A stretch of 20,297 bases of DNA from a virus, in IMG/VR virus record IMGVR_UViG_3300044701_005085, positions 1-20,297 of that record. One strand, given 5' to 3'. Below, piece by piece: positions 2,247-20,017 of this stretch. Numbering within the stretch: position 1 is the first letter of the stretch; each line of letters opens with the position of its first letter. The notes beneath the pieces are model-generated. The model searched no databases. It was given only the letters and a program-made list of their open reading frames with translations, and was not told the origin of the DNA. A program made the translations under genes and the position numbers.

Positions 2247-2455
2247 TGATAGTCAACAAGTACTATATTGTAGGTGAGCTTAGACCAGACACAGAAGCTA
2301 CTGCTTTGTCATTAGGCGCCAGTGCAATCATCATCGGAATCCCAGATTACCTCAAGGATGTCGCAGCACAGGAAAACTGGAATTTGCCTCACCTCTGGGT
2401 AGAAGAGTTTGAGCAGACTGAGCAGGAGCTTGACAGTGTCACACAACTTCTTTGA
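2243..2455 (+). CDS. Small acidic protein of unknown function
   Basis: This is a 70-residue ORF starting in an ATGA overlap with the upstream adhesin-like gene, with a second in-frame ATG at 2246. It reads as a short mixed fold: VNKYYIVGELRPDTEATALS, then GASAIIIGIPDYL, then an acidic C-terminus (WVEEFEQTEQELDSVTQLL). There is no signal peptide, membrane helix or recognised motif. Its 3' end overlaps the next glycine-rich gene by 20 bases, and that gene's ribosome binding site lies inside it, so translational coupling is likely. The position between two paralogous adhesin-like genes suggests a fibre-associated or chaperone role, as small assembly helpers often neighbour fibre genes. That is inference only. 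The ATGA coupling and lack of internal stops support it being real. Confidence 0.5.
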   Translation: MMIVNKYYIVGELRPDTEATALSLGASAIIIGIPDYLKDVAAQENWNLPHLWVEEFEQTEQELDSVTQLL

Positions 2456-3332
2456 AAGGTCCCTCTTTGACTCTTTTTTCGGAAACGGTGCCTCGGGTAA
2501 TGTTGTCGTAGTAGGAACTGTCACCCTTACGACAGACACTTACTATAACAACCTGACGGTCAATAGTGGCGGAGTCCTGATTACAGGAGGCTATAGAGTC
2601 TTTGTTAGAAATCGTCTGAGGGTTGAATCAGGTGGAACAATTCAGTACAATGCACCTGCTGCAAACGGAAGACTCGTAGGACCAGCTTATGGATTCGTAG
2701 GTACTGTCAATGGTTTTCCGACTTATGGCGCCAATGGAGTCAGTGGAAATGAGGGCGGAGTTGTGAATCATGTAGGAGTAACTCCAAACAATGCTGTATC
2801 ACAGTTGCGTCGAGGAGGAGTTCATGCTACAGCCTCAGCAGGCTGGTCTGCTGGAAAGGGCGGAAATGCAACCTTGAACGGTGCGGTTGGTGGCGCAGGC
2901 ACTCTCATAGCTAACAACTGGGGATCTACTAGGCACTTTCCAAACTGCATCACTTTCAAGGTTCACGGATTCGCTTCAGGTGCCTCTTTCGGAAGTGGTC
3001 CTGGGGGTGGCAGTGGTGCATGTGATGCAGGTGGTGTGAACGATTGGTCGGGAGCAGGCGGCCATGGCGGCGCAGCTGTGGGAATAGTCTGTCAAGAGAT
3101 CAGTAATGATGGAACAATCGAGTGCAAGGGTGGAAAGGGCGGGGACGCTGCAGGTTCAGTTAAGGCTGGCGGCGGTGGTGGCGGTGCTGGTGGAACCATT
3201 CTGATCACAACACGGATCGCAACAAAAGTGGGAACATTGGACGTGTCTGGTGGGGTCGGTGGTAATGGCGTCAATGGTGGTGAAAGCGGCAGTACAGGTG
3301 AGTCAGGCTTCACACAGGTGGTCATTATCTGA
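2436..3332 (+). CDS. Glycine-rich adhesin-like virion protein (paralogue 2)
   Basis: This 298-residue protein uses the GTG start at 2436, chosen because AGGAG at 2424-2428 sits 7 bases upstream and because the resulting N-terminus aligns with the paralogue at 1359. An upstream TTG at 2409 would add nine residues with no counterpart there. It shares with paralogue 1 an N-terminal FFGNGASGN segment, GYRVFVRNRLRVESGGTIQ, repeated glycine-rich stretches, and GTIECKGGKGGDA followed by GGGGGGAGG. It lacks paralogue 1's longest poly-Gly run and carries a different central insert (about residues 80-190) with FPNCITFKVHGFASG. Such divergence could reflect different receptor contacts. No enzymatic residues are visible. 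It is the last gene before a 60-base gap and the sugar cassette. Confidence 0.55.
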   Translation: MSHNFFERSLFDSFFGNGASGNVVVVGTVTLTTDTYYNNLTVNSGGVLITGGYRVFVRNRLRVESGGTIQYNAPAANGRLVGPAYGFVGTVNGFPTYGANGVSGNEGGVVNHVGVTPNNAVSQLRRGGVHATASAGWSAGKGGNATLNGAVGGAGTLIANNWGSTRHFPNCITFKVHGFASGASFGSGPGGGSGACDAGGVNDWSGAGGHGGAAVGIVCQEISNDGTIECKGGKGGDAAGSVKAGGGGGGAGGTILITTRIATKVGTLDVSGGVGGNGVNGGESGSTGESGFTQVVII

Positions 3333-3392: not shown

Positions 3393-5231
3393 GTGCAGGA
3401 AGTTGTGATCGTCTCTGACTTCTTCTCGACTGAGCTTGTAGGTGGTGCTGAACTTACTACTGCTGCTCTTGAGGAGTCGTCTCCTTTTAATTTAATCAGA
3501 GTCAAGTCACAGGACGTGACTGTGCAGCTTCTACAGGAGCACCATGGCAAACACTGGGTGTTTGGTAACTGGGCTCTACTAGATAAGAACTTACTGCCTA
3601 CTATCATCGCTAATATGTCGTACTCAGTGCTAGAGTACGACTACAAATTCTGTAAGTACAGGTCACCTGAGAAGCACACTACTGCTGAAGGGGTTCAATG
3701 TGACTGTCATGAGCAGCCTATTGGAAAGATTACGGCAGCGTTCTACTTCGGTGCCAGAACTCTCTGGTGGATGTCAGAGCGTCAACAGTCACGCTATCTT
3801 GAGAGATTCCCTCTTCTGAAGGAGAGGCCCGGAAGCGTGCTATCCTCAGTCTTCTCAGAGAGTTTTTGGACAAGACTTCGTGAACTCAGGCTTGAGAGCA
3901 AGAATTCTCAAAGGAGCAAGTGGCTTGTCCTGGGCTCAGGCTCCTGGATAAAGGGCACTGATGAAGCCATTCAGTGGTGCAAGGACAATAAGAAGGAGTA
4001 TGAGGTCCTGTCAGGAATCTCACCTGATGAAGTTCTAAAGCGAATGTCTACTGCTGAGGGGTTCGTCTACTTGCCAAAGGGCGGGGACACGTGTCCAAGG
4101 ATGGTCATCGAGGCAAAGCTTCTTGGTTGTAAGCTTCATCTAAATGACAACGTTGAGCACGGAGCCGAAGACTGGTTCAATGCCCCAGATCAAATTGACA
4201 CCGAGTCCTACCTGTACGCAGCAAGAGAGACTTTCTGGAATGGTGTCAGGGCAGGCATGGAGTGGAGACCAACAATCAGTGGTTACACTACAGTCTATAA
4301 TGCAGAAAGTATGGGTTATCCATGGCGAGATTGCGTCAGTTCAATGCTTGCATTCTGTGATGAGGTAGTTGTCCTCGACGGTGGATCAAATGATGGTTCA
4401 TGGGAAGCACTAGTAGCCTGGAGTCAAGCGGAACCAAAGATCAGAGCACACCAGCATGTCATTGACTTCGAATCACCTGGCTTTGCATATGAATCTGATG
4501 GCCTCCAGAAAGCAAGATCACGCGATCTCTGCACGAAGGAGTTCTGTTGGCAGATGGATGCCGATGAGGTAGTTCCCGCCGAAGATGGTGCAAAAGTTAC
4601 AGCACTGTGTAGGAGACTAACACAGGAAGTCGAGCTTGTCTCCCTTCCGGTCATAGAGTACTGGGGCTCAAAGGAGAGAGTCAGGGTTGATGTCAATCCT
4701 TGGAAGTGGAGGCTCTCAAGAAATAGAAAGCACATCACACACGGAATTCCTGCCTTCCTGCGTAGGACGACGACCGATGGTAGAATCCATGCTGCACCCG
4801 GTACTGATGGCTGTGATTACATCAACAGGAAGAATGGTGAGCTCATCCCACACGTTTCTTTCTACACTGAGGAGGCCCACAACGCGAGAATTTGGGCCCT
4901 TCGTGGAGACAAGGAAGCGCTAAGGGATTACGAGAAGTGGTTGCAGATGAATGTTGATGCACTTCCTTCCGTGATTCATTACTCTTGGCTTGATATCGGT
5001 AAGAAGATTCGCAACTACAGCAAGTACTGGTCAAGGTTCTGGCAGAGTCTTTATAATGTCAAACAGGAGGACACTGCTGAGAACAACATGTTCTTCGATA
5101 AGCCGTGGAGTGAGGTCACAGACGAAGAGATATCTGCTCTCGCAAAGAGGCTTGCCGAAGAAACTGGAGGGCATGTTTTCCACGAGAAGATCGACTGGAG
5201 TAAAGTGACACCCTCAATTAGGATTAATTGA
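3393..5231 (+). CDS. Two-domain glycosyltransferase (GT-B-like plus GT2-type GT-A)
   Basis: This 612-residue protein starts at GTG 3393, with AAGGAG 5 bases upstream. The N-terminal part (about 1-280) resembles a GT-B glycosyltransferase. It begins with a Rossmann-like strand, carries a central WLVLGSGSWIKGTDEA segment, and has a donor-site-like region LPKGGDTCPRMVIEAKLLGC with E240 in the position typical of GT4 enzymes. The C-terminal part (about 290-612) is a GT-A fold of GT2 type. Its hallmarks are TTVYNAESMGYPWRDCVSSM, VVLDGGSNDGS around residue 329, and the metal-binding DADE at 389-392. It probably transfers two sugars or acts as a processive pair on one glycan. It heads the sugar cassette and ends with a one-base overlap (TGATG) with the next glycosyltransferase. 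The GT2 half is secure; the GT-B half is less so. Confidence 0.8.
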   Translation: MQEVVIVSDFFSTELVGGAELTTAALEESSPFNLIRVKSQDVTVQLLQEHHGKHWVFGNWALLDKNLLPTIIANMSYSVLEYDYKFCKYRSPEKHTTAEGVQCDCHEQPIGKITAAFYFGARTLWWMSERQQSRYLERFPLLKERPGSVLSSVFSESFWTRLRELRLESKNSQRSKWLVLGSGSWIKGTDEAIQWCKDNKKEYEVLSGISPDEVLKRMSTAEGFVYLPKGGDTCPRMVIEAKLLGCKLHLNDNVEHGAEDWFNAPDQIDTESYLYAARETFWNGVRAGMEWRPTISGYTTVYNAESMGYPWRDCVSSMLAFCDEVVVLDGGSNDGSWEALVAWSQAEPKIRAHQHVIDFESPGFAYESDGLQKARSRDLCTKEFCWQMDADEVVPAEDGAKVTALCRRLTQEVELVSLPVIEYWGSKERVRVDVNPWKWRLSRNRKHITHGIPAFLRRTTTDGRIHAAPGTDGCDYINRKNGELIPHVSFYTEEAHNARIWALRGDKEALRDYEKWLQMNVDALPSVIHYSWLDIGKKIRNYSKYWSRFWQSLYNVKQEDTAENNMFFDKPWSEVTDEEISALAKRLAEETGGHVFHEKIDWSKVTPSIRIN

Positions 5232-5911
5232 TGTCAACGCCGCTTGTTTCTGTTGTCTTACCCGCAAGAAATGCTGAGACTACGATAGCGGAATCCATAA
5301 AGTCTGTCCTGAATCAGGATTTTACAGACATCGAGCTACTCGTGATATTGAACGGCTGCACAGATGACACGTTAGGTGTTGTAAGTTCGGTGAAAGATGA
5401 AAGATTGAGAGTCTTAGAGTCCGAACCTGGTATAGTGAAAGCCCTCAACACTGGTCTTTATGAGTCACGCGGCAAGTACATTGCAAGGCAAGATGCAGAT
5501 GACATATGGCTTCCTGGGAAGCTAGCATTACAGATCAACTTACTTGAAAATGACAATGTCGATGTTGTTGGTACCCAGATGAGTGTCATCTCAAGTTCTG
5601 GATTAAACGTGACAAGTTATCCGCTACAAAATTCTAGTATAAAGTCTGCAATACTGGCAGGTCACAATCCAATCGGTCATCCATCGGTCACTTATCGAAA
5701 GTCTGTCGTAAAAAGTGTTGGAGGCTACTGGGACTTCTTCCCACTGGCCGAGGATCTTGATATGTGGGCAAGACTGATTCCACTAGCAAAATTTGCTAAC
5801 ATAGACGTGCCACTTGTCAAGTACAACCACGTACCGAACCCAAAGTACAATCCAGGAGTACCAAAGATCCTCGGAATGCACTACACACAGCTATACAGGA
5901 ACTCTAAATGA
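5231..5911 (+). CDS. Family 2 glycosyltransferase
   Basis: This is a 226-residue GT-A fold enzyme. The ATG at 5231 is preferred over a TTG one codon upstream and overlaps the previous stop by one base. Motifs follow the family order: VSVVLPARNAETTIAESIKS at the N-terminus, VILNGCTDDT as the nucleotide-sugar strand, the DAD metal site at 88-90 within ARQDADDIW, then GHPSVTYRKS and the catalytic-base region LAEDLDMWAR near 174. It transfers a sugar from a nucleotide donor with inversion, presumably onto a growing glycan; donor and acceptor cannot be read from sequence. Length is typical of a minimal soluble GT2 catalytic domain, with no membrane helices. It ends in an ATGA overlap with another GT-A-like gene, so the enzymes are likely made together. 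Confidence 0.85.
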   Translation: MSTPLVSVVLPARNAETTIAESIKSVLNQDFTDIELLVILNGCTDDTLGVVSSVKDERLRVLESEPGIVKALNTGLYESRGKYIARQDADDIWLPGKLALQINLLENDNVDVVGTQMSVISSSGLNVTSYPLQNSSIKSAILAGHNPIGHPSVTYRKSVVKSVGGYWDFFPLAEDLDMWARLIPLAKFANIDVPLVKYNHVPNPKYNPGVPKILGMHYTQLYRNSK

Positions 5912-6708
5912 AAGTTGACGTACTCATCTTCTCAAAGAATCGGCCAGCCCAACTGGACCTCCTGCTAAGGTCCATTAGTGAGAATTCCTCTGGAACTAAT
6001 GCGATTAGCGTCCTATACACGTCGACTTCAAGTGACCTGCATGAAGGCTATGCAAGGGTGATCGATTTGCATCCAACGGTGCAATTCTATCAAGAGAGGG
6101 CGTTTATGACCGACGTGAAGGAGTGGCTTGCAGGCTCTAAGCAAAGGTCCGTAATGATGCTCGTTGATGATATCGTCTTTCGAGAATATGTTGACTTCTC
6201 GACGATGGATGAGAGATTGAATGCAAATCCCGGAGTACTTTGTTACTCACCAAGATTAGGCCTCAACCTTGACTACTGTTATACACTCGATAAGAAGCAG
6301 TCTGTTCCCAATGGCACTGTTGTCGATGGAATGTTCGTATGGCAGTGGATGATGGGTGAAAGTGACTGGTCATATATGTTTTCTGTTGACGGTCATCTCT
6401 TTAGGCGAGCAGAGCTCGAATCGTGGATCTCGCATCTAAACTTCAGCAACCCTAACACACTTGAAGCTGAAATGCAAAAGATAACATGGACGTTTGACAT
6501 ACCGAAGCATGCGGTATCCCATGTCACATCAAGGCTTTTCAATATCCCTGCGAACAGGGTGCAAGATGTATTTGAGAACAGGTCAGGCGATGTTTCAATC
6601 GTCGAGATTAATGACAGGTTCAAAGCCGGTTCAAGGCTCTCTTTAGGAAGCCTCAAGGCAATGAACAGGGCATGCCACGAAGAGAGGATTTTGACATGGG
6701 AAAACTGA
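5908..6708 (+). CDS. GT-A-type glycosyltransferase (GT2-like)
   Basis: This 266-residue protein opens with VDVLIFSKNRPAQLDLLLRS, the family's N-terminal strand-helix, and carries VMMLVDDIVF with D87-D88 where GT-A enzymes bind the metal and nucleotide. After that it diverges from typical GT2 enzymes. It has a Trp-rich segment (MFVWQWMMGESDWSY) and an SVDGHLFRRAELESWI region that may form the acceptor site. I recall related proteins in marine phages and viruses, but cannot name a CAZy family. The ATG at 5908 is in an ATGA overlap with the previous gene. The C-terminus overlaps the GT6 gene by 13 bases. The glycosyltransferase call is good; the substrate is unknown. Confidence 0.65.
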   Translation: MKVDVLIFSKNRPAQLDLLLRSISENSSGTNAISVLYTSTSSDLHEGYARVIDLHPTVQFYQERAFMTDVKEWLAGSKQRSVMMLVDDIVFREYVDFSTMDERLNANPGVLCYSPRLGLNLDYCYTLDKKQSVPNGTVVDGMFVWQWMMGESDWSYMFSVDGHLFRRAELESWISHLNFSNPNTLEAEMQKITWTFDIPKHAVSHVTSRLFNIPANRVQDVFENRSGDVSIVEINDRFKAGSRLSLGSLKAMNRACHEERILTWEN

Positions 6709-7406
6709 GAGTGGGAGTTTTGCTTATTAGCACAGGGAAGTATGACCAGTTTGTGAAGCCGCTACTGGACTCTTTAGAGTCACACTTTCTAGTAGATCAC
6801 GAGAAGAAGTACTATCTCTTCACAGACAAAGAGCACGTCGATAACAGGGTAGCACATGTAAGGATCGAGAGAAAAGGATTCCCAGGAGACACCCTCTACA
6901 GGTTTCACTACTTCCTGACAATCGAAGACATTCTTGTAAAAGAGACTGATTGTTTGTATTACATGGATGTTGATATGTTGTGCGTTAATGCGATATCCAA
7001 CGAGATACTACCAACTCTTGCTAAGCCACTCGTGGCAACATCTCATCCGGGCTTCTTCCTAAAGAGCCTTGGTACACCTGAGGATGACAATAGGAGCACT
7101 GCTTTTATCTCAAACGCAGAGTACAGGCCCTGTTATTGGGCTGGTGGCTTTAGTGGAGGAGCTACAGACAGCTACCTCACGATGGCAAAGACGATTAAGG
7201 AAAATGTTGACATCGACACTTCTCGCGGAAAGATCGCAAAGTGGCATGATGAATCTCATCTCAACAGGTACCTCACCTCCAACCTTGACAAGGTCAAAAC
7301 CATGAATCCGTCATACTGCTACTCTGGCAAACTCCTGCAAGGTATTCCGTTCGTTGTTCCTCGGCTTGTCGCTCTTGACAAGAATCACAGTGAAGTGAGG
7401 TCATGA
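6696..7406 (+). CDS. GT6 family glycosyltransferase (ABO/alpha-1,3-Gal(NAc) transferase-like)
   Basis: The 236-residue protein matches the minimal catalytic core of GT6, the retaining family of vertebrate ABO, alpha-1,3-galactosyl and Forssman transferases. Visible landmarks in order are GVLLISTGKYDQFV (7-20), YLFTDK (40-45), the metal-binding DVD (91-93), ATSHPGFF (114-121), YWAGGFSGG (147-155), WHDESHLN (183-190) with the catalytic Glu at 186, and the C-terminal KNHSEVR. The residue aligned with human ABO position 268 is Gly (G151), as in the GalNAc-using A enzyme, but donor choice cannot be decided from this. ATG 6696 is preferred because AGAGAGG sits 8 bases upstream and the N-terminus then matches the family; an ATG at 6672 is the alternative. 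No transmembrane anchor is present, unlike the vertebrate Golgi enzymes. Confidence 0.9.
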   Translation: MGKLRVGVLLISTGKYDQFVKPLLDSLESHFLVDHEKKYYLFTDKEHVDNRVAHVRIERKGFPGDTLYRFHYFLTIEDILVKETDCLYYMDVDMLCVNAISNEILPTLAKPLVATSHPGFFLKSLGTPEDDNRSTAFISNAEYRPCYWAGGFSGGATDSYLTMAKTIKENVDIDTSRGKIAKWHDESHLNRYLTSNLDKVKTMNPSYCYSGKLLQGIPFVVPRLVALDKNHSEVRS

Positions 7407-8335
7407 AATCACCATATAGACAGGTCGTCATATGGGGAGAAAGGCTTGTGAATGGCCACAGTCATACTCACACTTACGTTCATGCTGCGTTCATGAAGGC
7501 TTATCAATGGTTGGGTCACACTGTCCTATGGCTATCTGATGAAGACGATATCTCTTCACTTGAATTCTCTGGGACGATGTTTATCACTGAGGGATTCAAG
7601 AATCTAAAGATGCCTATTCGAGGCGATTGTTGGTATGTACTTCACCATGTAGACTTCAAGCGTTTTGCAAGTGTTGCACAGAGGTGCGTTAACCTCAAGG
7701 CATACAGTACGTCCAATATGAAGCTTGTTGGGAAATGTCAGAAGATTCGTGACTTTGAGTATGTTACGAACTTCAATGAAGGCGGTGTTGAGGCTTCTAC
7801 GTTACTAATGCCCTGGGCAACGCACCTACTTCCATTTGAGTTCGAGAAGCTTGACAGAAAGTGCATAGCAGGAAGAAGAACTCGACTTGTTCACTGGGTT
7901 GGTTCTATCACAGACGGTGAAATGGGCAACATTGAAGAACTTCGAAAGACTGCAATTGCCCTTGAATCTCTTGGTGTACAGTTGGTTCACTCAAAAGTTG
8001 CTGAGGGCTGGGAAAGCAAAACCGCTATCCAGCACTCATGGATAGCGCCTGCTATCGTTGGAAAGTGGCAGAATGAAGTTGACTACCTGCCCTGTAGAGC
8101 CTTCAAAAATGCATCACTAGGAAGACTACCTGTGAGTAACTCCTCAGTCATCAATGAGATTTTTGAGCACATCATGCCGAGACCACAGGAGACTAACTAC
8201 GCAGAAGCGTTTACCGCTGTGCATGAGATGGAAGTCAATTCTGACGCATGCAGGCATGTGCAAGAAATAGTCAAAGTGAATCACACTTACTTGAACAGAA
8301 TCGACACGATAGAGACAGTGTTTGGTTGGAGATAA
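7403..8335 (+). CDS. GT-B-like glycosyltransferase (probable)
   Basis: This 310-residue protein starts at the ATG in an ATGA overlap with the GT6 gene, with GTGAGG just upstream. The N-terminus (VVIWGERLVNGHSHTHTYVH) reads as a strand, loop and helix followed by KAYQWLGHTVLWLSDEDD, typical of a GT-B N-terminal Rossmann domain. The C-terminal part has VHWVGSITDGEMGN and YLPCRAFKNASLGRLPVSNS, the latter resembling the donor-binding segment where GT-B enzymes recognise the sugar nucleotide. I do not recognise the exact family. Fucosyltransferase was considered because of the GDP-fucose genes downstream, but no GT10, GT11 or GT23 motif is visible. There are no membrane helices. The location inside the cassette supports a role in assembling the same glycan. 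Confidence 0.5.
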   Translation: MKSPYRQVVIWGERLVNGHSHTHTYVHAAFMKAYQWLGHTVLWLSDEDDISSLEFSGTMFITEGFKNLKMPIRGDCWYVLHHVDFKRFASVAQRCVNLKAYSTSNMKLVGKCQKIRDFEYVTNFNEGGVEASTLLMPWATHLLPFEFEKLDRKCIAGRRTRLVHWVGSITDGEMGNIEELRKTAIALESLGVQLVHSKVAEGWESKTAIQHSWIAPAIVGKWQNEVDYLPCRAFKNASLGRLPVSNSSVINEIFEHIMPRPQETNYAEAFTAVHEMEVNSDACRHVQEIVKVNHTYLNRIDTIETVFGWR

Positions 8336-8337
8336 AA

Positions 8338-8937
8338 TTGAGCGTCATAAAGAAAAGCATAACTGACTACTGGACCCATGCCATTGCTTGTAATTCAACC
8401 GGCATGGACAAGTTTGATCTCATAAAGTCACTTGCAACGGGCAAAGTTCTTCATGTTGGTTGCACTGATTATCCACTAGACAGCGTTGGTTCACTTCACA
8501 GGAGAATGATTGATGTCGGGATCGATGTTGATGGGTTTGACGTAGATAGCGTTGGAATCTCAAAACTAAGGGAGATCCTACCAGGACACGCTTTCTATGA
8601 TGATGTGTCTCAGATTACTCGATCATACGATCTTCTTGTCATTCCTGAGGTCATTGAGCATGTCACATCCCACGAAAAATTCTTTGAAGGGCTAAACGGG
8701 ATCGAGTTTGAAAGATTCGTGCTGTCTGTGCCGAATGCACTCTATCGCCAACTGCCATACCAGCATGATCCTCAAACAGGAACATTCTATGAAGTTGTCC
8801 ACCCAGATCACAAGTGCTGGTACTCTCCATACACGATATGCTTTCTAATCGAAGAAACAGCGAAGTGGAAGGTTGAAGACGTCTACCTAATGCATAATCA
8901 CAGTCAGGTTGTCCTCGTAGGCAAGAAGTCATGTTGA
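8338..8937 (+). CDS. SAM-dependent methyltransferase (class I, probable sugar O-methyltransferase)
   Basis: This 199-residue protein starts at TTG 8338, because GGAGA (8328-8332) lies 5-6 bases upstream and the gene then follows the previous stop by two bases. Extending to the in-frame ATG at 8248 would impose an 88-base overlap and an atypical basic N-terminus. The SAM-binding motif I is KVLHVGCTDYPLDS (residues 36-49), the acidic post-I position is in VDGFDVDS (64-71), and a motif-IV-like VIPEVIEHV lies at 101-109. This order is typical of class I methyltransferases acting on small molecules, sugars or lipids. In a glycan cassette it most likely methylates a sugar hydroxyl, perhaps capping the chain, but that is inference. 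It overlaps the fucose synthase start by 7 bases. Confidence 0.7.
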   Translation: MSVIKKSITDYWTHAIACNSTGMDKFDLIKSLATGKVLHVGCTDYPLDSVGSLHRRMIDVGIDVDGFDVDSVGISKLREILPGHAFYDDVSQITRSYDLLVIPEVIEHVTSHEKFFEGLNGIEFERFVLSVPNALYRQLPYQHDPQTGTFYEVVHPDHKCWYSPYTICFLIEETAKWKVEDVYLMHNHSQVVLVGKKSC

Positions 8938-9854
8938 TAACAGGCGCAACAGGTCTTCTTGGCAGCGAGATTCTTGCACTGTCACCAGGATCAGTTGGTC
9001 TCAATTCAAGGGATTGTGACCTGTCGGAGTCAAACCACGCTATTCTTACCCTTGAAGATGATAGAGTAGAAACAGTCATTCACTGCGCAGCAAGGGTCGG
9101 TGGTGTGAAGGCAAACACTGACTATGTTGCAGACTTCTTTGATGACAATGTCAAGATGAACATGAACGTTCTTGATGCCTGCCGTGAAAGGAAGTTGAAA
9201 CTGGTCTCGGTTCTCTCAACCTGCATCTATCCTGATGCTCCATACGTGAAGTACCCACTCACTGAGGATCAGCTTCACATGGGTCCTCCTCATCCCTCAA
9301 ACTTTGGTTACGCATACGCAAAGAGGATGTTGGAAGTACAAGCTCGCGCATATCGCCAGCAACACGGTTGCAATTTTATCTCTGTCATTCCTAACAATCT
9401 CTATGGTCTAAACGACAACTATGACCTGAATAGCGGTCATGTGATACCAGCTCTCATACGCAAGTTTCACGAGGCAATCATTAGTGATAAAAGGGATGTC
9501 GTCATTTGGGGCACAGGAAAACCACTTCGTGAGTTCACGTTTGCAAGGGACGCAGCAAAGATTGTTCTTTGGCTTGCAAAGCATTACGATGGTGAAACTC
9601 CTGTGAACATTGGAAATACGCAACAGGTATCAATTGAAAGTTTGGCACTGGCCATATCGGCTGAGATGTGTTACAAGGGAACGATAAGGTTTGACACAAG
9701 TAAACCTGATGGACAATACATGAAACCTTCTTCAAACAGTTTCTTGCGGTCTCTTGGGTGGAAGGAAGAGTATACTCCCCTTCGAGTGGGCCTAGCTGAA
9801 ACAATAAAGTCATTCAAGGAAAGATACCCGAACGTTCGTGGTGTTACCATTTGA
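8931..9854 (+). CDS. fcl: GDP-L-fucose synthase (GDP-4-keto-6-deoxymannose epimerase/reductase)
   Basis: This 307-residue short-chain dehydrogenase-type enzyme carries out the second and third steps to GDP-L-fucose: 3,5-epimerisation, then NADPH-dependent 4-reduction of GDP-4-keto-6-deoxymannose. The nucleotide-binding motif is G5-x2-G8-x2-G11. [10 protein letters not shown] (53-62) and STCIYP (96-101) follow. The catalytic set aligns with the E. coli enzyme: S96, C98, Y127, K131 and H170 correspond to S107, C109, Y136, K140 and H179. [11 protein letters not shown] and [15 protein letters not shown] are further family signatures. Length is slightly below the usual 310-320. It is followed after two bases by GDP-mannose 4,6-dehydratase, the preceding pathway enzyme, which greatly strengthens the call. 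Confidence 0.92.
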
Positions 9855-9856
9855 TT

Positions 9857-10828
9857 ATGAAGACAGCGCTCATAACAGGTGTAACAGGCCAGGACGGAAG
9901 CTACCTTGCAGAATTCCTGCTTGAGAACGGTTACAAGGTTGTAGGAATGAAGAGGAGGACTTCTCTTCTTGCAACAGATCGCATCGATCACCTCTTTAGC
10001 AATCCAAACTTCAGCCTCGTCTATGGCTCAATGAATGACGTGGGTTCATTCTACAGGCTCTTCCGTGATCAGCACTTTGATGAAGTCTACAACCTAGCTG
10101 CACAGTCACATGTTAGAGTCTCATTCGATGTTCCTGAGGAGACTGTCGATGCAGTAGCAATGGGCCCCCTGAGACTTCTAGAGTGTATCAGGACTATGCA
10201 GCCCCAGTGTCGATTCTACCAGGCCTCATCCTCTGAGATGTACGGTGATAATCCTGAGCATCCTCAGAATGAGGAGACGCGACTCATGCCGGCATCTCCC
10301 TATGCATGCGCAAAGGTCTTTGCTCATGGTCTCACTCGAAACTATCGTGAGGGATACGGCATTCACGCATCTTCCGGCATCCTCTTCAACCATGAGAGTC
10401 CTCGCCGCGGTGAGACTTTCGTCACTCGAAAGATCACTCTGGCAGCCGCAAGGATTAAGCTTGGCCTACAGGACAAGATTGCCCTCGGTAACCTTGATGC
10501 TCTTCGTGACTGGGGCTATGCCAAGGACTATGTTGAGGCAATGTGGCTCATGCTACAGCAGGAAAATCCGGACGATTATGTAATTGCTACTGGTGAGACT
10601 CACACGGTGCGTGAGTTTCTGGATGAAGTTTTCAAAATTGCAGACCTTGATGTTGACAAGCATCTCATCATCGATGACAGGCTTAGGCGTCCTCACGAGG
10701 TTCCATGGTTGGAAGGTGACTGCACAAAGGCCAGCGAGAAACTTGGCTGGGTCCCAAAGACAACCTTCAAAGGTCTTGCAAGGCTTATGTACGAGGCAGA
10801 TCTAAAGCTTGTGAAGGGTGAACTATGA
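9857..10828 (+). CDS. gmd: GDP-mannose 4,6-dehydratase
   Basis: This 323-residue enzyme converts GDP-D-mannose to GDP-4-keto-6-deoxy-D-mannose using bound NADP. The ATG at 9857 is chosen over a TTG two codons upstream. The dinucleotide motif GVTGQDG occupies residues 8-14. [15 protein letters not shown] and [12 protein letters not shown] are typical GMD segments, and QASSSEMYG gives the active-site S125 and E127 equivalents of E. coli T132 and E134. The catalytic Tyr and Lys are Y149 and K153 in [24 protein letters not shown] and [17 protein letters not shown] are near-diagnostic. Length is somewhat shorter than the roughly 370 residues of the E. coli enzyme. It overlaps the next gene by four bases and works with the fucose synthase just upstream. 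GDP-mannose must come from the host or from a gene outside the window. Confidence 0.95.
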
Positions 10829-11238
10829 CATATGAGAGAGGCATAATAGCGGGTTCATTTGACATCCTACACCCAGGTTACATACGGATGTTCGAAGAGT
10901 CAAAGCGTGTAGTGAACTACCTCATTGTAGCCCTACAGGATGATCCGACTATTGATAGGCCTGAGAAGTGCAAGCCTGTACAGTCATGGGAAGAAAGAGC
11001 TGAGATACTTAGATCGCTTCGATACGTTGACGATGTGGTCTACTACAACACCGAGTACGATCTCAGAAAGCTGCTTGGTTCCGTAAAGTATGATGTCAGG
11101 ATTCTTGGATCTGATTACCTCGGCAGGAGATTCACAGGTGATGACCTGGAAAAACCTGTCTTTTACTGCAACAGGAATCATCAGTACAGTCTCACAGACC
11201 TAAAGGAACGTATTGCGGAGTCTATGTTGAATAGGTGA
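10825..11238 (+). CDS. Cytidylyltransferase-like nucleotidyltransferase with altered HxGH motif
   Basis: This 137-residue protein has the layout of the TagD/RfaE-C nucleotidyltransferases that activate glycerol-3-phosphate, heptose-1-phosphate or similar substrates. The N-terminal signature is [19 protein letters not shown], where the usual HxGH reads H16-P-G-Y19, so the second His is Tyr. The middle [20 protein letters not shown] matches the conserved RxxxLxxlxyVDxV region. [14 protein letters not shown] and [10 protein letters not shown] take the place of the GxDY and (R/S)ISTTxIK motifs. Related HPGY proteins occur, to my recollection, in marine phages and bacteria. It may still transfer a nucleotide, but loss of a catalytic-site His makes activity and substrate uncertain. 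It is the last gene before a 40-base gap and closes the nucleotide-sugar block. Confidence 0.7.
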
Positions 11239-12096: not shown

Positions 12097-12121
12097 TGTG
12101 ATAGTGATGCAGGTGAGCACA

Positions 12122-13366
12122 TTGAGTAAAAAGAAAGTTATCGTCCTTTCCGATCACGCATTAAGCCCGTCAGGTGTGGGTAATCAAACCAGACACCTGA
12201 TCAACGGCCTCCTTGCAAAAGGAGGCTGGACTTTTAGGCAATTCGGAGCTGCAATTAAGCATCAGAGCTACGAGACAATAGCTGTCAATGAGGACTTTAT
12301 CATCAAGCCGATTGACGGCTTTGGTGATAGAAATCTGATTAGAGTTGCTCTGGCTACTGAGAAGCCTGATGCTATTCTCATCTTCACTGACCCAAGGTTC
12401 TTCACGTGGCTGTTTGAGATGGAAGATGAGATACATCAGGTCTGTCCAATCGCATGGTGGCACGTGTGGGACAACAACCCAGTGCCGGTCTTTAATGACC
12501 CTTACTACATGGGAACCGATCTGCTCAATTGCCACTCTTACCTAACGTACGAGATGGTAAGCAAGCTGTATCCTGAAAAGACTAATTTCGTCCCACATGC
12601 ATTGCCACCAGGTCTGTTTCACAGGATGCCTTCTTACATGAGGTCACACCATCGTTCAAAGCTGTTGGGTGAATCGAGGAAGGATCACATGATTGGCCTC
12701 TGGATCAATCGAAATGCAAGAAGGAAGCGCCCATCTGACGTTATCGAGTCATGGTCAATTTTCCTTAAGAATCTCCAGGAGAAGCATGGACACAGAAATG
12801 CCACGCTAATCATGCATACAGACCCATTTGACCAGGAAGGTCCAAACCTTGTTGAGGTCGCAAAACTAATGGGCATTGATGCAAATGTCGTTTTCTCGAA
12901 AGAGCGCCTTGACTATGAGAAGATGAACATCCTGCACAACATTAGCGATTTCTGTATCAACATCTCCTACGCAGAAGGTTTCGGGCTCTCAACTCTTGAG
13001 TCAATGACTGTAGGTAATCCCATTGTTGCGATCAAGACAGGAGGCCTTACAAGGCAGGTTGTCGACCACAGGGACGGTTCTGAGAATGGTGTTGCACTCC
13101 CTGTCGAGCTTCGAACCCTTGTAGGGTCCCAGACGGTTCCATACATTTACGAGGATTACGTCACAAACGAGACGATTGCAAAAGCTTACATGCAACTCTT
13201 TGAGATGGGACCTGATGGTCGTGAGAAGCTTGGCGCAAAGGCAATGAACTATGCCAATACCGAGTTCAGTTACCAGAAGACTATTGACGAGTGGGATAGG
13301 ACTCTCACCGATCTCATTGATAACTGGAAGACGAAGAGGAAGACCTGGGAGGTTGAAAAGCTGTGA
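12122..13366 (+). CDS. GT4-type glycosyltransferase (GT-B fold)
   Basis: This protein of about 414 residues is a classic GT-B enzyme. The N-terminal acceptor domain starts KKKVIVLSDHALSPSGVGNQ, with a glycine-containing loop after the first strand. The C-terminal donor domain has IGLWINRNARRKRPSDVIES and the GT4 EX7E motif E285-GFGLSTL-E293 followed by GNPIVAIKTGGL. It transfers a sugar with retention from a nucleotide donor that cannot be named from sequence. TTG 12122 is preferred because AGGTGA (12111-12116) lies 5 bases before it. ATG 12107 and GTG 12098 are alternatives that would add 5 or 8 residues. A perfect hairpin lies inside the early coding region at 12207-12226. The gene overlaps the next glycosyltransferase by four bases (GTGA). 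Confidence 0.85.
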   Translation: MSKKKVIVLSDHALSPSGVGNQTRHLINGLLAKGGWTFRQFGAAIKHQSYETIAVNEDFIIKPIDGFGDRNLIRVALATEKPDAILIFTDPRFFTWLFEMEDEIHQVCPIAWWHVWDNNPVPVFNDPYYMGTDLLNCHSYLTYEMVSKLYPEKTNFVPHALPPGLFHRMPSYMRSHHRSKLLGESRKDHMIGLWINRNARRKRPSDVIESWSIFLKNLQEKHGHRNATLIMHTDPFDQEGPNLVEVAKLMGIDANVVFSKERLDYEKMNILHNISDFCINISYAEGFGLSTLESMTVGNPIVAIKTGGLTRQVVDHRDGSENGVALPVELRTLVGSQTVPYIYEDYVTNETIAKAYMQLFEMGPDGREKLGAKAMNYANTEFSYQKTIDEWDRTLTDLIDNWKTKRKTWEVEKL

Positions 13367-14520
13367 AGAAGATTCTAGTAAGAGGTCCACTTCTCTCAAA
13401 GTCGGGCTATGGAACGCATGCAAGGCAGATAGTGAGCTGGCTCATTGAGAGGAGAATTGAGTTTGCTGCCGAAATTACTCCCTGGGGCATTACTCCTTGG
13501 CACTTGAACGCAAGTGACCTAAACGGTCTCATTGGAAAGATAATGGAGGCATCCGGAAAGAAAAGTGATAGATATGATGCCTCAATTCAGATTCAATTGC
13601 CGCATGAATGGGAGCAGATACAGGGTTGCTACAACATTGGAGTTACAGCAGGCACCGAAACTGATTTTGCATCAAAAGATTGGGCGATTGCTGTGTCAAA
13701 GATGGATCTCGTAATTGTTCCAAGCAGTTTCACAAAGGAATCTCTGGTAAGAGGGCAAGCTCCTTCCGACAAAATCGTTGTTATTCCAGAGTGTTTCAAC
13801 CCTGAGATCCCATCAGTGACGAGTGGCCTGCCACTCAAAGAGGTGGAATCGAATTTCAACTTTCTGCTCTTTGGCCAGATTACAGGCAACGATCCTGATC
13901 GTGACAGAAAGAACATCTTCTACACCGTGAAGTGGTTCTGCGAAGAGTTTGCTGGAAACAAGGACGTTGGACTTGTGATAAAGTCTAACATGGGAACTAA
14001 TTGCGTGTTTCACAGAAAGGCCCTGAATGATCTGTTCAAGAAGCTCATCTCAGAAGTGAGAAAGGGCGAGTACCCAAGGGTTTACTTGTTGAACGGTGAC
14101 ATGTCTGAAACCGAGTGTGCCGCTCTTTACAAGAGTCCAAAGGTTCACTGCATGGTGTCCTTCACAAAGGGCGAGGGTTATGGTCTTCCGCTAGTTGATG
14201 CCGCAGCATCAGGACTGCCTGTCATAGCCACCGATTGGTCAGGCCACCTTGACTTTCTAAATCGTGGAAAGTTCTCAAAGGTGAGCTACAGCATGGTGAA
14301 TGTTCCACAGTCGATCATCGACGAAAAGATCTTTGCAAGTGGCTCAAAATGGGCTATGCCAAAGGAAGAAGACGCAAAGAAGAGAATGAAGAAGATGGTT
14401 GAGTCACGTCACACACCAAAGCAGTGGGCTGATGAACTTTCTCAAAAAGTCTTAAGTGAATTCTCACAAGAGGCCGTGAATCTTCGATATGACGATGTTC
14501 TCGGTAAGCTGCTATGTTGA
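13363..14520 (+). CDS. GT4-type glycosyltransferase (GT-B fold)
   Basis: This 385-residue GT-B enzyme starts at GTG 13363, overlapping the previous stop, with GGGAGG about 10 bases upstream. It opens with KKILVRGPLLSKSGYGTHAR, where SGYGTHAR is the glycine-rich loop after the first strand. DLVIVPSSFTKESLV then KIVVIPECFN marks the domain hinge, FNFLLFGQITGNDPDRDRKN starts the donor domain, and FTKGEGYGLPLVDAAASGLP is the nucleotide-sugar site. The GT4 EX7E motif reads E271-x7-D279, so the second Glu is Asp, a conservative change found in some GT4 enzymes. Together with the previous gene it likely adds consecutive sugars to the same glycan. It overlaps a small membrane-protein gene by 7 bases. 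Substrate is unknown. Confidence 0.85.
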   Translation: MKKILVRGPLLSKSGYGTHARQIVSWLIERRIEFAAEITPWGITPWHLNASDLNGLIGKIMEASGKKSDRYDASIQIQLPHEWEQIQGCYNIGVTAGTETDFASKDWAIAVSKMDLVIVPSSFTKESLVRGQAPSDKIVVIPECFNPEIPSVTSGLPLKEVESNFNFLLFGQITGNDPDRDRKNIFYTVKWFCEEFAGNKDVGLVIKSNMGTNCVFHRKALNDLFKKLISEVRKGEYPRVYLLNGDMSETECAALYKSPKVHCMVSFTKGEGYGLPLVDAAASGLPVIATDWSGHLDFLNRGKFSKVSYSMVNVPQSIIDEKIFASGSKWAMPKEEDAKKRMKKMVESRHTPKQWADELSQKVLSEFSQEAVNLRYDDVLGKLLC

Positions 14521-17708: not shown

Positions 17709-18188
17709 TTGTCATCTAAGAAGTACAGTTTCAAAGCTGTGGGTGAGACACCAGACGAACTTGCACAAAGGGCGAGACAGTCTATCTCATCACCTCCAAT
17801 TGGAATCGTTACGCCAATGTCACTTGGTGAAGGTGATGATGGTATCTTCAAGATGCACCACGACCTCGGAAACACTATTGCCGACAACCTTCGAAACCTG
17901 ATATCAACGAACTGGGGAGAGAGGCTGCTGGACTACAGATTTGGTGCCAACCTCAGAGAGCTGACTTTTGAGCTGGGGTCGGAAGACACGGATGCAGTTG
18001 CTATTGCAAGAATAAAAGCTGCGACTGACAGATACTTACCGTATGTCTCGCTTGATACATTCGAACCTTTCAATGAACTCGTAGAAGAGTCTGGAATCGC
18101 TAGAATCGGAGTGAGAATAACATACACTGTCCCACTTGTTGACACTAAGACACGGTCACTAGAGGTGACTCTACACACGGCAGGATGA
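17709..18188 (+). CDS. Baseplate wedge subunit, GPW/gp25 family
   Basis: This 159-residue protein has the gp25/GPW family layout: a variable N-terminus with PPIGIVTPMSLGEGDDGIF, then HHDLGNTIADNLRNLISTNW followed by GERLLDYRFGANLRELTFEL, the central family motif. The C-terminal domain ends in an IGVRITYTVPLVD strand and RSLEVTLH. gp25 links wedge proteins to the tail sheath and nucleates sheath assembly in contractile tails. The start is TTG 17709 with AGGA at 17695-17698; no in-frame ATG or GTG lies between it and the upstream stop at 17676, and later starts would cut the N-terminus. The stop overlaps the first ATG of the gp6-like gene. Family assignment is strong. Confidence 0.9.
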   Translation: MSSKKYSFKAVGETPDELAQRARQSISSPPIGIVTPMSLGEGDDGIFKMHHDLGNTIADNLRNLISTNWGERLLDYRFGANLRELTFELGSEDTDAVAIARIKAATDRYLPYVSLDTFEPFNELVEESGIARIGVRITYTVPLVDTKTRSLEVTLHTAG

Positions 18189-20017
18189 TGGCTGCAAATA
18201 GAAAGACACCCAATCGAAACTACCTCTCGAAGGACTTTGCGGACTTTCGTCGTGACCTTCTCGGGTATGCAAGAACATTCTTCCCAGACAAGATTCAGGA
18301 CTTCAGTGAAGCTTCTGTTGGTGGTCTTTTGCTAGACATGGCTGCAACAGTCGGCGACAACATGTCATTCTACCTTGACCACCAGTTCAGGGAGCTGTCT
18401 TGGAGTGAAGCTGTTGAAGTGCAGAACATTGAAAGGCTGCTTCGTAATAACGGCGTCAAGATTACTGGTGCATCTCCAAGCACAGTGACCCTAACGTTCT
18501 ACATTGAGGTACCTGCTGTGGATAACCTTGGTGTAGCAGTCCCAGATGAATCATCGCTCCCGGTAATACTTCCTGACACCGTTGTTGCTTCGTCAAACGG
18601 CGTGTTCTTCTCAACTGTTGCACCTGTGGATTTCACAGAGAAAGACAGGGCGGGCAATCTAATGTCTAACATAGTGGTTGGTGATACTTCAAACGATGGC
18701 ACACCACTCACATTCATCCTCAGTAAGAACACGACTGCCGTATCAGGCAAAATCTATACTGAGAGCTTCACATTTGGATCCGGCTACAGGCCATTCCAGA
18801 CTATAAGCCTCTCTAACGAGAATGTCACAGAGGTGATGTCCGTCGTAGATTCTGATGGAAACCTCTGGTATGAAGTTGAAAGCCTGACACAGGACACTGT
18901 GTTCTTGGGTAACAGAAATAGAACGCCTGATCGGGACGAAGTTGAGGAATCGCTTTACATCGTTCCTGCACCGCTGCGTTTCATCACAACTGTTGACCTA
19001 CAAAGCAGGTCAATGCAGCTCAGGTTTGGAGGCGGAGATCAAAACGCTGTTGATGATGATGTCTTTCCTGATCCTTCGAAGTTCTCACTGCCCACTTATG
19101 GAAGGAATACGATTCCACGGTTCACAGTCGACCCTAATGCCCTATTGCGTTCAAAGACTCTTGGGGTCGCTCCTACCTCTACGACACTAACTGTCAACTA
19201 TCGTGCTGGTGGCGGAATCTCACACAATGTTGGAGCAGGAACCATTCGATCAATCAAGACCCTTAATATGGAGTTTCGTGACGGGCCTGCGTCTTCTATT
19301 GCGACAGCTGTTAGGGCATCTGTGGACGTTGTCAATAACACACCTGCAACAGGAGGAGCCCAAGCACCGACGATCGACCAGCTTCGCACCCTTGTGCCCG
19401 CAGCAAAGAATGCGCAGGCAAGGATAGTGACTAAATCAGACCTCATATCTAGGGTGTACTCATTGCCATCAAAGTTTGGCAAGGTCTTCCGTGCAGGTGT
19501 GAGGCCAAACCCAAACAATCCCTTGGCATCCCAGCTGTTTGTGCTTAGCACCGATTCTAATGGGAGGCTCATACAGACTCCCGACACGCTGAAGCAGAAC
19601 TTGAGAACCTATCTCAACGAGTATAGGCTAATATCGGATGCAATTGACATTGTTGATGCCAGGGTGATAAACGTTACCTTACAAGTAACGATTGTTCCGA
19701 CTGCAAACGCAGTACCACTTAATGTTTCAAGAGACGTGATACAGGCTCTAAGGACGTTGATGTCAACAAGCAGCACGCAGATTGACCAAGCAATCGTAAT
19801 ATCTGACGTTCTCAACTCAATCATAAACGTTCAAGGTGTGCTCGCGGTTACCAACATCTCAGTGCAGAGCATATCTGGCTTGCTTGATGGCAGACAATAC
19901 TCTGAGAATTACTTTGATGTTGAGGCCAACACATACAGGGGTCTCATTGTGCCTCCGCCTGGTGCAATATTTGAAGTAAGATTCCCACAATACGACATAG
20001 TCGTTACGACGGAGTAA
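18185..20017 (+). CDS. Baseplate wedge protein, gp6/Baseplate_J-like
   Basis: This 610-residue protein begins with MMAANRKTPNRNYLSKDFAD (either ATG at 18185 or 18188), followed by an FRRDLLGYARTFFPD helix and DFSEASVGGLLLDMAATVGD. That arrangement is typical of gp6-type wedge proteins. The middle is strand-rich, with FTFGSGYRPFQTISLSNENV. The C-terminal half carries the Baseplate_J-like core: PAAKNAQARIVTKSDLISRV, then VFRAGVRPNP, then TLKQNLRTYLNEYRLISDAI and DARVINVTLQVTIVP. gp6 forms the inner wedge ring that joins the six baseplate arms around the hub. It overlaps the gp25 gene by four bases, as expected for interacting wedge partners. Confidence is high for the Baseplate_J class and slightly lower for strict gp6 orthology. 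Confidence 0.88.
   Translation: MMAANRKTPNRNYLSKDFADFRRDLLGYARTFFPDKIQDFSEASVGGLLLDMAATVGDNMSFYLDHQFRELSWSEAVEVQNIERLLRNNGVKITGASPSTVTLTFYIEVPAVDNLGVAVPDESSLPVILPDTVVASSNGVFFSTVAPVDFTEKDRAGNLMSNIVVGDTSNDGTPLTFILSKNTTAVSGKIYTESFTFGSGYRPFQTISLSNENVTEVMSVVDSDGNLWYEVESLTQDTVFLGNRNRTPDRDEVEESLYIVPAPLRFITTVDLQSRSMQLRFGGGDQNAVDDDVFPDPSKFSLPTYGRNTIPRFTVDPNALLRSKTLGVAPTSTTLTVNYRAGGGISHNVGAGTIRSIKTLNMEFRDGPASSIATAVRASVDVVNNTPATGGAQAPTIDQLRTLVPAAKNAQARIVTKSDLISRVYSLPSKFGKVFRAGVRPNPNNPLASQLFVLSTDSNGRLIQTPDTLKQNLRTYLNEYRLISDAIDIVDARVINVTLQVTIVPTANAVPLNVSRDVIQALRTLMSTSSTQIDQAIVISDVLNSIINVQGVLAVTNISVQSISGLLDGRQYSENYFDVEANTYRGLIVPPPGAIFEVRFPQYDIVVTTE

Follow-up and report, generated by a model that had tools for sequence, protein, structure and literature searches.

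The window (the whole stretch of DNA analyzed here, 20,297 nucleotides of the virus record IMGVR_UViG_3300044701_005085) contains, amid phage genes, an open reading frame (ORF) whose product resembles the human ABO blood-group enzymes of glycosyltransferase family 6 (GT6). This raises the question of whether the protein is a working GT6 enzyme, what it could do for a phage, and how viral members of the family relate to those found in bacteria and animals.

Identity of the phage GT6 protein

Judged from its sequence, the product of the ORF at 6696-7406 is a genuine GT6-family member of the DXD type. The protein matched the profile PF03414 with an E-value of 3e-27 and 95.6 bits against a curated cut-off of 25, which places it inside GT6 as the original prediction had proposed, and it also matched PHROG 3317 ('glycosyltransferase') with 180 bits. 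Besides, the best match in a PDB sequence search was BoGT6a (E 9e-40), followed by human GTA (E 6e-25). The score against NCBIfam NF041524 (family 6 glucosyltransferase) was 188.5 bits, under the cut-off of 250 for that model, and fits a divergent member of the family. Every motif that had been quoted for the protein (TGKYDQFV, FTDK, DVD, HPGFF, GGFSGG, WHDESHLN and KNHSEVR) was found in its 236 residues. The gene and its main motifs are located as follows:

6696..7406, + strand: GT6 glycosyltransferase of 236 amino acids (PF03414, PHROG 3317, PDB matches, AF2 model)
6966..6974, + strand: DVD, residues 91-93, the predicted metal-binding DXD motif, aligning with human D211-V-D213
7143..7160, + strand: GGFSGG, residues 150-155, from the alignment with human GTA
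7242..7256, + strand: WHDES with the catalytic-position Glu186, aligning with human E303 and BoGT6a E192
7380..7400, + strand: KNHSEVR, with the C-terminal Lys229 and Arg235, aligning with human K346/R352

The ORF is intact, with 236 codons (a start at the in-frame ATG of 6672 would lengthen the product to 244 amino acids), and it shares a 13-base overlap with the preceding ORF while its stop codon overlaps the ATG at 7403. By overlapping both neighboring ORFs, the gene belongs to a densely packed run.

Predicted structure and active-site residues

An AlphaFold (AF2) model built from 40 aligned sequences reached a pLDDT of 95.7 and a pTM of 0.92 and showed a GT-A fold of the GT6 type, with Z scores of 30-34 to GT6 structures. 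It superposed on 225 residues of BoGT6a at 1.5 A (4ayj; Z 33.8) and on 229 residues each of a human blood-group enzyme at 1.3 A (3sx3; Z 32.1) and of bovine alpha3GT at 1.5 A (1k4v; Z 30.5). The superposition on human GTA/GTB that had been proposed as a check gave 1.3-1.4 A over about 230 residues of this confident model, and the structural match extends to human residue 353.

The HMMER alignment sets the human DVD opposite residues 91-93, so the DVD reported for this protein is indeed retained, and it pairs the human WHDESHLN and KNHQAVR with WHDESHLN and KNHSEVR of the phage protein, with W183-E186 opposite human W300-E303. By the same kind of comparison, the donor-contact and catalytic residues E186, H117, R69 and D185 correspond to human E303, H233, R188 and D302, and K229 to human K346 and alpha3GT K359, the C-terminal lysine that contacts the diphosphate; the roles of the residues at the human alignment positions are taken from published work (PMC4692239; PMC3961637). 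Displacement of DVD and Glu186 from the active-site cleft had been named as an outcome that would speak against the assignment, and the active-site residues were found to align, where 'in the cleft' denotes residue-by-residue sequence equivalence together with whole-fold superposition, not measured distances.

These positions are also conserved across the 205 sequences of the DXD set (a redundant set defined by the residues equivalent to D91 and D93). H117 and Y147 are invariant, E186 is kept in 204 sequences with a gap in the remaining one, and D185, E186 and K229 are present in every filled column. A variant, WHDESQ instead of WHDESH, occurs in 27 of the 205 (redundant count), including the viral loci L100, L145 and L162. 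Arginine fills the column of Arg235 in 46 of the 54 NXN sequences but in just 147 of the 205 DXD ones, which rules this residue out as a marker of metal dependence. Altogether, the sequence and the model indicate that the protein is almost certainly a working glycosyltransferase.

The residues associated with donor choice, human positions 266 and 268, correspond to A149, just before GGFSGG, and G151, within it. Both are identical to those of BoGT6a, a GalNAc-transferase, and they are compatible with GalNAc under the proposed rule that this sugar requires a glycine at 266 or 268 (PMC4692239), so that these two residues suggest UDP-GalNAc as the more likely donor. Compared with human GTA, alanine replaces Leu266 and Phe62 replaces Trp181, the latter being common to L001, L017, L097-L099, L104 and L169, among others. 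Moreover, Ser210 stands at the position of human Asp326, where most relatives have proline and the alignment is loose. With Phe62 and Ser210 at these positions, details of donor or acceptor binding may differ from those of the human enzyme.

A glycan cassette between tail and baseplate genes

The gene had been described as part of a phage late region, in agreement with the gp25-like, baseplate-wedge (gp6/J-like) and tail-fibre-like genes flanking the cassette to which it belongs. The cassette is located between the tail-fibre-like and the baseplate genes, on the same strand, and its main components are:

3393..5231, + strand: 612-amino acid protein whose middle part gives a weak GT2-type match (PF13704/PF00535 below cut-off)
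5228..5911, + strand: GT2 glycosyltransferase (PF00535, 89 bits)
5908..6708, + strand: unannotated ORF directly upstream of GT6, without Pfam or PHROG match
7403..8335, + strand: unannotated protein with predicted GT-B fold directly downstream of GT6 (AF2 pLDDT 89)
8931..9854, + strand: probable GDP-L-fucose synthase (Fcl; PF01370, 169 bits)
9851..10828, + strand: GDP-mannose 4,6-dehydratase (Gmd; TIGR01472, 438 bits, equivalog cut-off 415)
10825..11238, + strand: cytidylyltransferase-like sugar/polyol nucleotidyltransferase (PF01467, PHROG 7878)
12098..14520, + strand: two GT4-type glycosyltransferases (PF00534 over cut-off in both)
17709..20017, + strand: baseplate genes (gp25-like, gp6/J-like) flanking the cassette (PHROG 43, 219; PF04965/PF04865 weak)

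In addition, a short unannotated ORF lies between the GT-B-fold ORF and the Fcl-like epimerase, and a PD-(D/E)XK nuclease is listed between the cytidylyltransferase-like gene and the GT4 genes. A tblastn search matched a baseplate gene of the window to the baseplate wedge annotated in Flavobacterium phage immuto. The Gmd score over its cut-off and the Fcl-like gene suggest that the cassette probably makes GDP-fucose; the best NCBIfam match of the Fcl-like protein was NF047922, with 248 bits, under its cut-off of 500.

Near the tail-fibre-like genes, the ORFs at 1359-2246 and 2409-3332 of the window contain long glycine-rich tracts without Pfam match, and their composition is reminiscent of polyglycine phage adhesins. 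The tail-fibre-like ORFs at 2-523 of the window and at 2337-2942 and 2973-4538 of L001 have a common C-terminal block, YTGDLHLRNDRGDYTLIEE...FNxTGKRYKF.

Several other contigs carry the same module. The first five cassette genes (the weak GT2-type gene, GT2, the 5908 ORF, GT6 and the GT-B ORF) occur in the same order in L001. All five are also present in L097, L099 and L169, where the homologue of the 7403 ORF comes ahead of that of the 5908 ORF; four of the five are together in L104, and L098 is more rearranged. The 612-amino acid protein is conserved in L001, L097, L099, L104 and L169, and homologues of the 5908 ORF adjoin GT6 in these same five loci and lie near it in L098, so that the ORF accompanies GT6 within its clade. 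The gp6-like baseplate protein of the L001, L097, L098, L104 and L169 phages is 47-54% identical to that of the window, which indicates that these phages are related to the window phage; the module may therefore have descended with related phages rather than jumped between them. Among 26 contigs with a closely related Gmd (L261-L286), several of them cut near the site, GT6 was found only in L262, which is the same contig as L001, and in L278 and L280, whose GT6 proteins are divergent (30% identity). One contig of 41 kb encodes a gp6-like protein that is 99% identical, but it begins so near Fcl that the GT6 site is not covered.

Distribution of GT6 and the history of its metal site

The original prediction mentioned a single cyanophage example of phage GT6, and our survey overturned this view. 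INPHARED contains 71 phage records with a GT6 match over at least 80% of the protein, mostly from Synechococcus and Prochlorococcus phages but including two uncultured phages of 630-640 kb, and the IMG/VR scan returned at least 584 GT6 loci, which rules out rarity; a count from 2014 already listed two cyanophages along with 36 bacterial species (PMC3961637). In the open-access literature, no paper discussing phage GT6 as such was found. Phage GT6 genes are already known and common, and the window copy adds to the known list. When the species genomes of GTDB were scanned with a single motif, 157 GT6 loci were confirmed, and in the Dependentiae (the phylum of G011) GT6 scored over cut-off in 27 of 101 genomes. 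An uncultured huge phage, L006 (record LR756502.1, 642 kb), has a GT6 and four GT11 matches over cut-off.

The DVD motif of the window protein had been contrasted with the NXN of most bacterial enzymes, and among viruses it proved to be the rule: the viral GT6 sequences, made non-redundant at 95%, comprise 114 DXD, two NXN and one DVC (n=117). Part of this tally comes from a second scan, made with an NXN-type query alignment, which still returned almost only DXD viruses and so excludes the DXD predominance as an artefact of viral queries. The expectation that most bacterial GT6 enzymes have lost DVD for NXN was upheld by 51 NXN (NGT included) against 29 DXD sequences among the sampled bacteria, also non-redundant at 95%, in a ratio probably biased toward DXD, since the ranking of the loci followed their similarity to viral queries. 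The 2014 count included two bacterial GT6 of the DXD type, one of them demonstrated to be metal-dependent (PMC3961637).

Phylogenetic analysis supports one change between DXD and NXN in an unrooted tree. In a quick tree with 126 rows, all 51 of the NXN/NGT type formed one exact split (SH-aLRT 98) with the window outside, and in a more careful tree of 81 rows, from which the three motif columns had been removed, a 42-row NXN split was obtained with bootstrap 100 and SH-aLRT 95, recovered in all of 200 bootstrap trees and again excluding the window sequence. The direction from DXD to NXN is suggested by DXD being the general GT-A motif. The DVD and this tree position rule out a metal-independent NXN type for the window enzyme.

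Viral and cellular DXD rows were interleaved in the 81-row tree, with seven changes of the virus label (6-8 over bootstraps). The window sequence paired with L001 at 100/100 and belonged to a six-row group of five viral and one cellular DXD rows (100/99); in the quick tree, the sole cellular row of the corresponding group was that of the alphaproteobacterium Arenibaculum pallidiluteum (L017), a placement among viral rows consistent with phage-bacterium exchange. The proposal that a DVD-containing phage copy bears on how the family moved between viruses, bacteria and animals was thus partly borne out, for viruses and bacteria, through the interleaved DXD rows and the single NXN branch; for animals, the human row formed a long branch of unsure placement.

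Some sequences depart from these patterns. The only two NXN viral GT6 found (L184 and L185) are long ORFs with an N-terminal methyltransferase-like part (FkbM-like by eye), suggesting fusion and uptake from bacteria, and L320 is a viral GT6 with DVC instead of DXD near a Gmd gene. A distinct cyanophage branch (L009-L013, L015, L016 and similar loci) has Q-G-C for A-G-G at human 266-268 and no C-terminal KNHxxxR pattern, hinting at another donor or acceptor.

Fucosyltransferase genes near GT6

GT11 enzymes make the Fuc-alpha-1,2-Gal unit that ABO-type GT6 enzymes extend, so that a GT11-GT6 gene pair reads as an H-then-A/B-like pathway, although a nearby GT11 is a matter of gene context and does not define the enzyme. 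With a GT11 profile made from phage and bacterial sequences, we found GT11 on the same strand, within the fetched flank (about 6 kb), of 92 of the 117 non-redundant viral GT6 genes, directly adjacent in 43 of them, against 15 of 73 control loci (IMG/VR loci chosen by Gmd, without GT6). The Fisher p of 2e-15 overstates this difference, since related phages do not count as independent cases and the controls were those most similar to the Gmd of the window. GT11 was also present in 32 of 51 bacterial NXN loci and in six of 29 bacterial DXD loci.

No GT11 was recognized among the window proteins scanned against Pfam, and PF01531 (GT11) had no match in the 257-kb nearest relative; the five other GT6 phages tested all have it. 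Searches for GT10 and NodZ gave no match, but their controls gave none either, so that these two results carry little information. In the retrieved DNA of 30 Dependentiae GT6 loci (L341-L370), some of them short, no GT11 was found, indicating that GT6 commonly occurs without GT11 nearby; all 31 Dependentiae GT6 sequences tallied are of the DXD type.

A candidate partner of GT6 in the window is the protein encoded at 7403-8335. It has no Pfam, PHROG or NCBIfam match, but its AF2 model gave Z scores of 15-17 to GT-B enzymes such as TarM, PimA and T4 alpha-glucosyltransferase, these structural matches being GT4-type and similar enzymes, not fucosyltransferases. Members of its family lie near GT6 in 55 of the 170 viral loci, counted with redundancy, versus one of 73 control loci. 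A pattern scan of IMG/VR for this ORF returned no relatives, yet they are present in the loci fetched through GT6. The family, with the motif WATDLLP...PCRxFKNISYG...HTYxNR, is found repeatedly next to GT6, in viruses as well as in some Dependentiae and Chlamydiae loci.

Proposed function and competing explanations

We consider it probable that the protein is a metal-dependent alpha-1,3-GalNAc/Gal transferase belonging to a phage glycan cassette. With a divalent metal held by the DVD motif, this retaining, GT-A-fold enzyme would bind a UDP-sugar (more probably UDP-GalNAc than UDP-Gal), which would be transferred in alpha-1,3 linkage, as the family suggests, onto a surface glycan at a residue of the galactose type. 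The characterized DXD enzyme of Parachlamydia acanthamoebae requires Mg/Mn, whereas the NXN enzyme BoGT6a does not (PMC3961637), and by analogy the window enzyme is likely to depend on metal as well. GT6 would work together with the several glycosyltransferases and the probable GDP-fucose synthesis of the cassette, most likely to remodel a polysaccharide of the host surface during infection or to decorate virion proteins, so that the acceptor would most likely be a host-surface or virion glycan.

The nature of the acceptor divides the alternatives. The enzyme might be a true analogue of the histo-blood-group A/B synthases, adding GalNAc or Gal onto Fuc-alpha-1,2-Gal, with the fucosyltransferase supplied by a cassette gene, such as the GT-B-fold ORF at 7403-8335, or by the host. 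Gmd and the Fcl-like gene imply GDP-fucose, GT11 accompanies most viral GT6 genes, and by inspection it lies near the bacterial L017, in the same clade as the window; however, GDP-fucose could feed another sugar, the 257-kb relative has no GT11 and the matches of the GT-B-fold ORF point away from fucosyltransferases, and we regard this explanation as rather unlikely. Transfer onto a non-fucosylated acceptor, as by vertebrate alpha3GT or the Forssman synthase, has a chance that we place a little below even: the record of the nearest relative and the 30 Dependentiae loci, in which GT11 was not found, speak in its favor, whereas BoGT6a, the closest characterized relative in sequence and structure, uses fucosylated lactose (PMC3961637).

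The same cassette could instead glycosylate tail or other virion proteins and not the host surface. Its place between tail-fibre-like and baseplate genes would suit such a role, but gene position alone is weak evidence and in P-SSM2 and S-CAM9 the listed neighbors of the GT6 cluster are metabolic and host-related genes, not tail genes, which leaves this a doubtful option. That the DNA is cellular and misassigned to a virus, or that the gene is decayed, could be imagined from the record being only a 20,297-base fragment; nevertheless, the record itself includes baseplate genes, a gp6-like protein of 99% identity is encoded on a sister contig, a 257-kb contig has closely similar gene order, and the GT6 reading frame is unbroken, with none of the tested catalytic residues lost. 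The synteny across several virus contigs makes this last explanation very unlikely, and we give it next to no weight. The metal-dependent alpha-1,3-transferase of a glycan cassette thus remains our preferred interpretation.

At the level of the family, we tentatively propose a wider scenario, which we hold as a speculative possibility. Phages would be a main reservoir of the metal-dependent DXD form of the ABO family, often with an H-forming GT11 that would complete a blood-group-like A/B pathway in many of them; the DXD form would have passed repeatedly between viruses and cells, NXN would have a single bacterial origin, and the DXD pool could be the source of vertebrate GT6. The survey corrects the view of phage GT6 as a rarity, maps the loss of the metal site to one bacterial branch while viruses almost always keep it, and suggests that the pairing of a fucosyltransferase gene with GT6 recurs in phages, a family-level pattern that is more useful than the single gene of the window. 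Two questions thereby become testable: do phages decorate host cells or virions with ABO-like sugars, and which pool supplied animals with GT6?

Comparison with known systems

The GT6 of the Prochlorococcus phage P-SSM2 (PSSM2_268, AAX44645.1), one of the closest known systems together with its Kyanoviridae relatives, is an annotated phage counterpart with DVD and about 37% identity to the window protein, and it likewise lies in a run with a GDP-mannose dehydratase, nucleotide-sugar epimerases and other glycosyltransferases. In P-SSM2, however, a GT11 stands upstream in the same run, whereas none was recognized in the window, where a GT-B-fold ORF of another family directly follows GT6; the close Salacisavirus kin of P-SSM2 (L007) also falls in a tree clade separate from that of the window. 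BoGT6a of Bacteroides ovatus (4ayj, 4cj8) shares the fold (1.5 A over 225 residues), the organization as a soluble catalytic domain only and Ala/Gly at the donor-choice positions, but it has NAN in place of DVD, belongs to a different tree branch and has been demonstrated to be metal-independent (PMC3961637). The GT6 enzymes of Parachlamydia acanthamoebae and of Dependentiae/Chlamydiae are bacterial examples of the DXD type; in the quick tree, the Dependentiae/Chlamydiae rows form a supported branch of their own, apart from the clade of the window. Human GTA/GTB align with the window protein at the DVD, the histidine, the WHDE and the C-terminal lysine and arginine, with an identity of about 31% (about 24% for bovine alpha3GT), and the phage ORF differs from human GTA and alpha3GT in having no extra N-terminal region.
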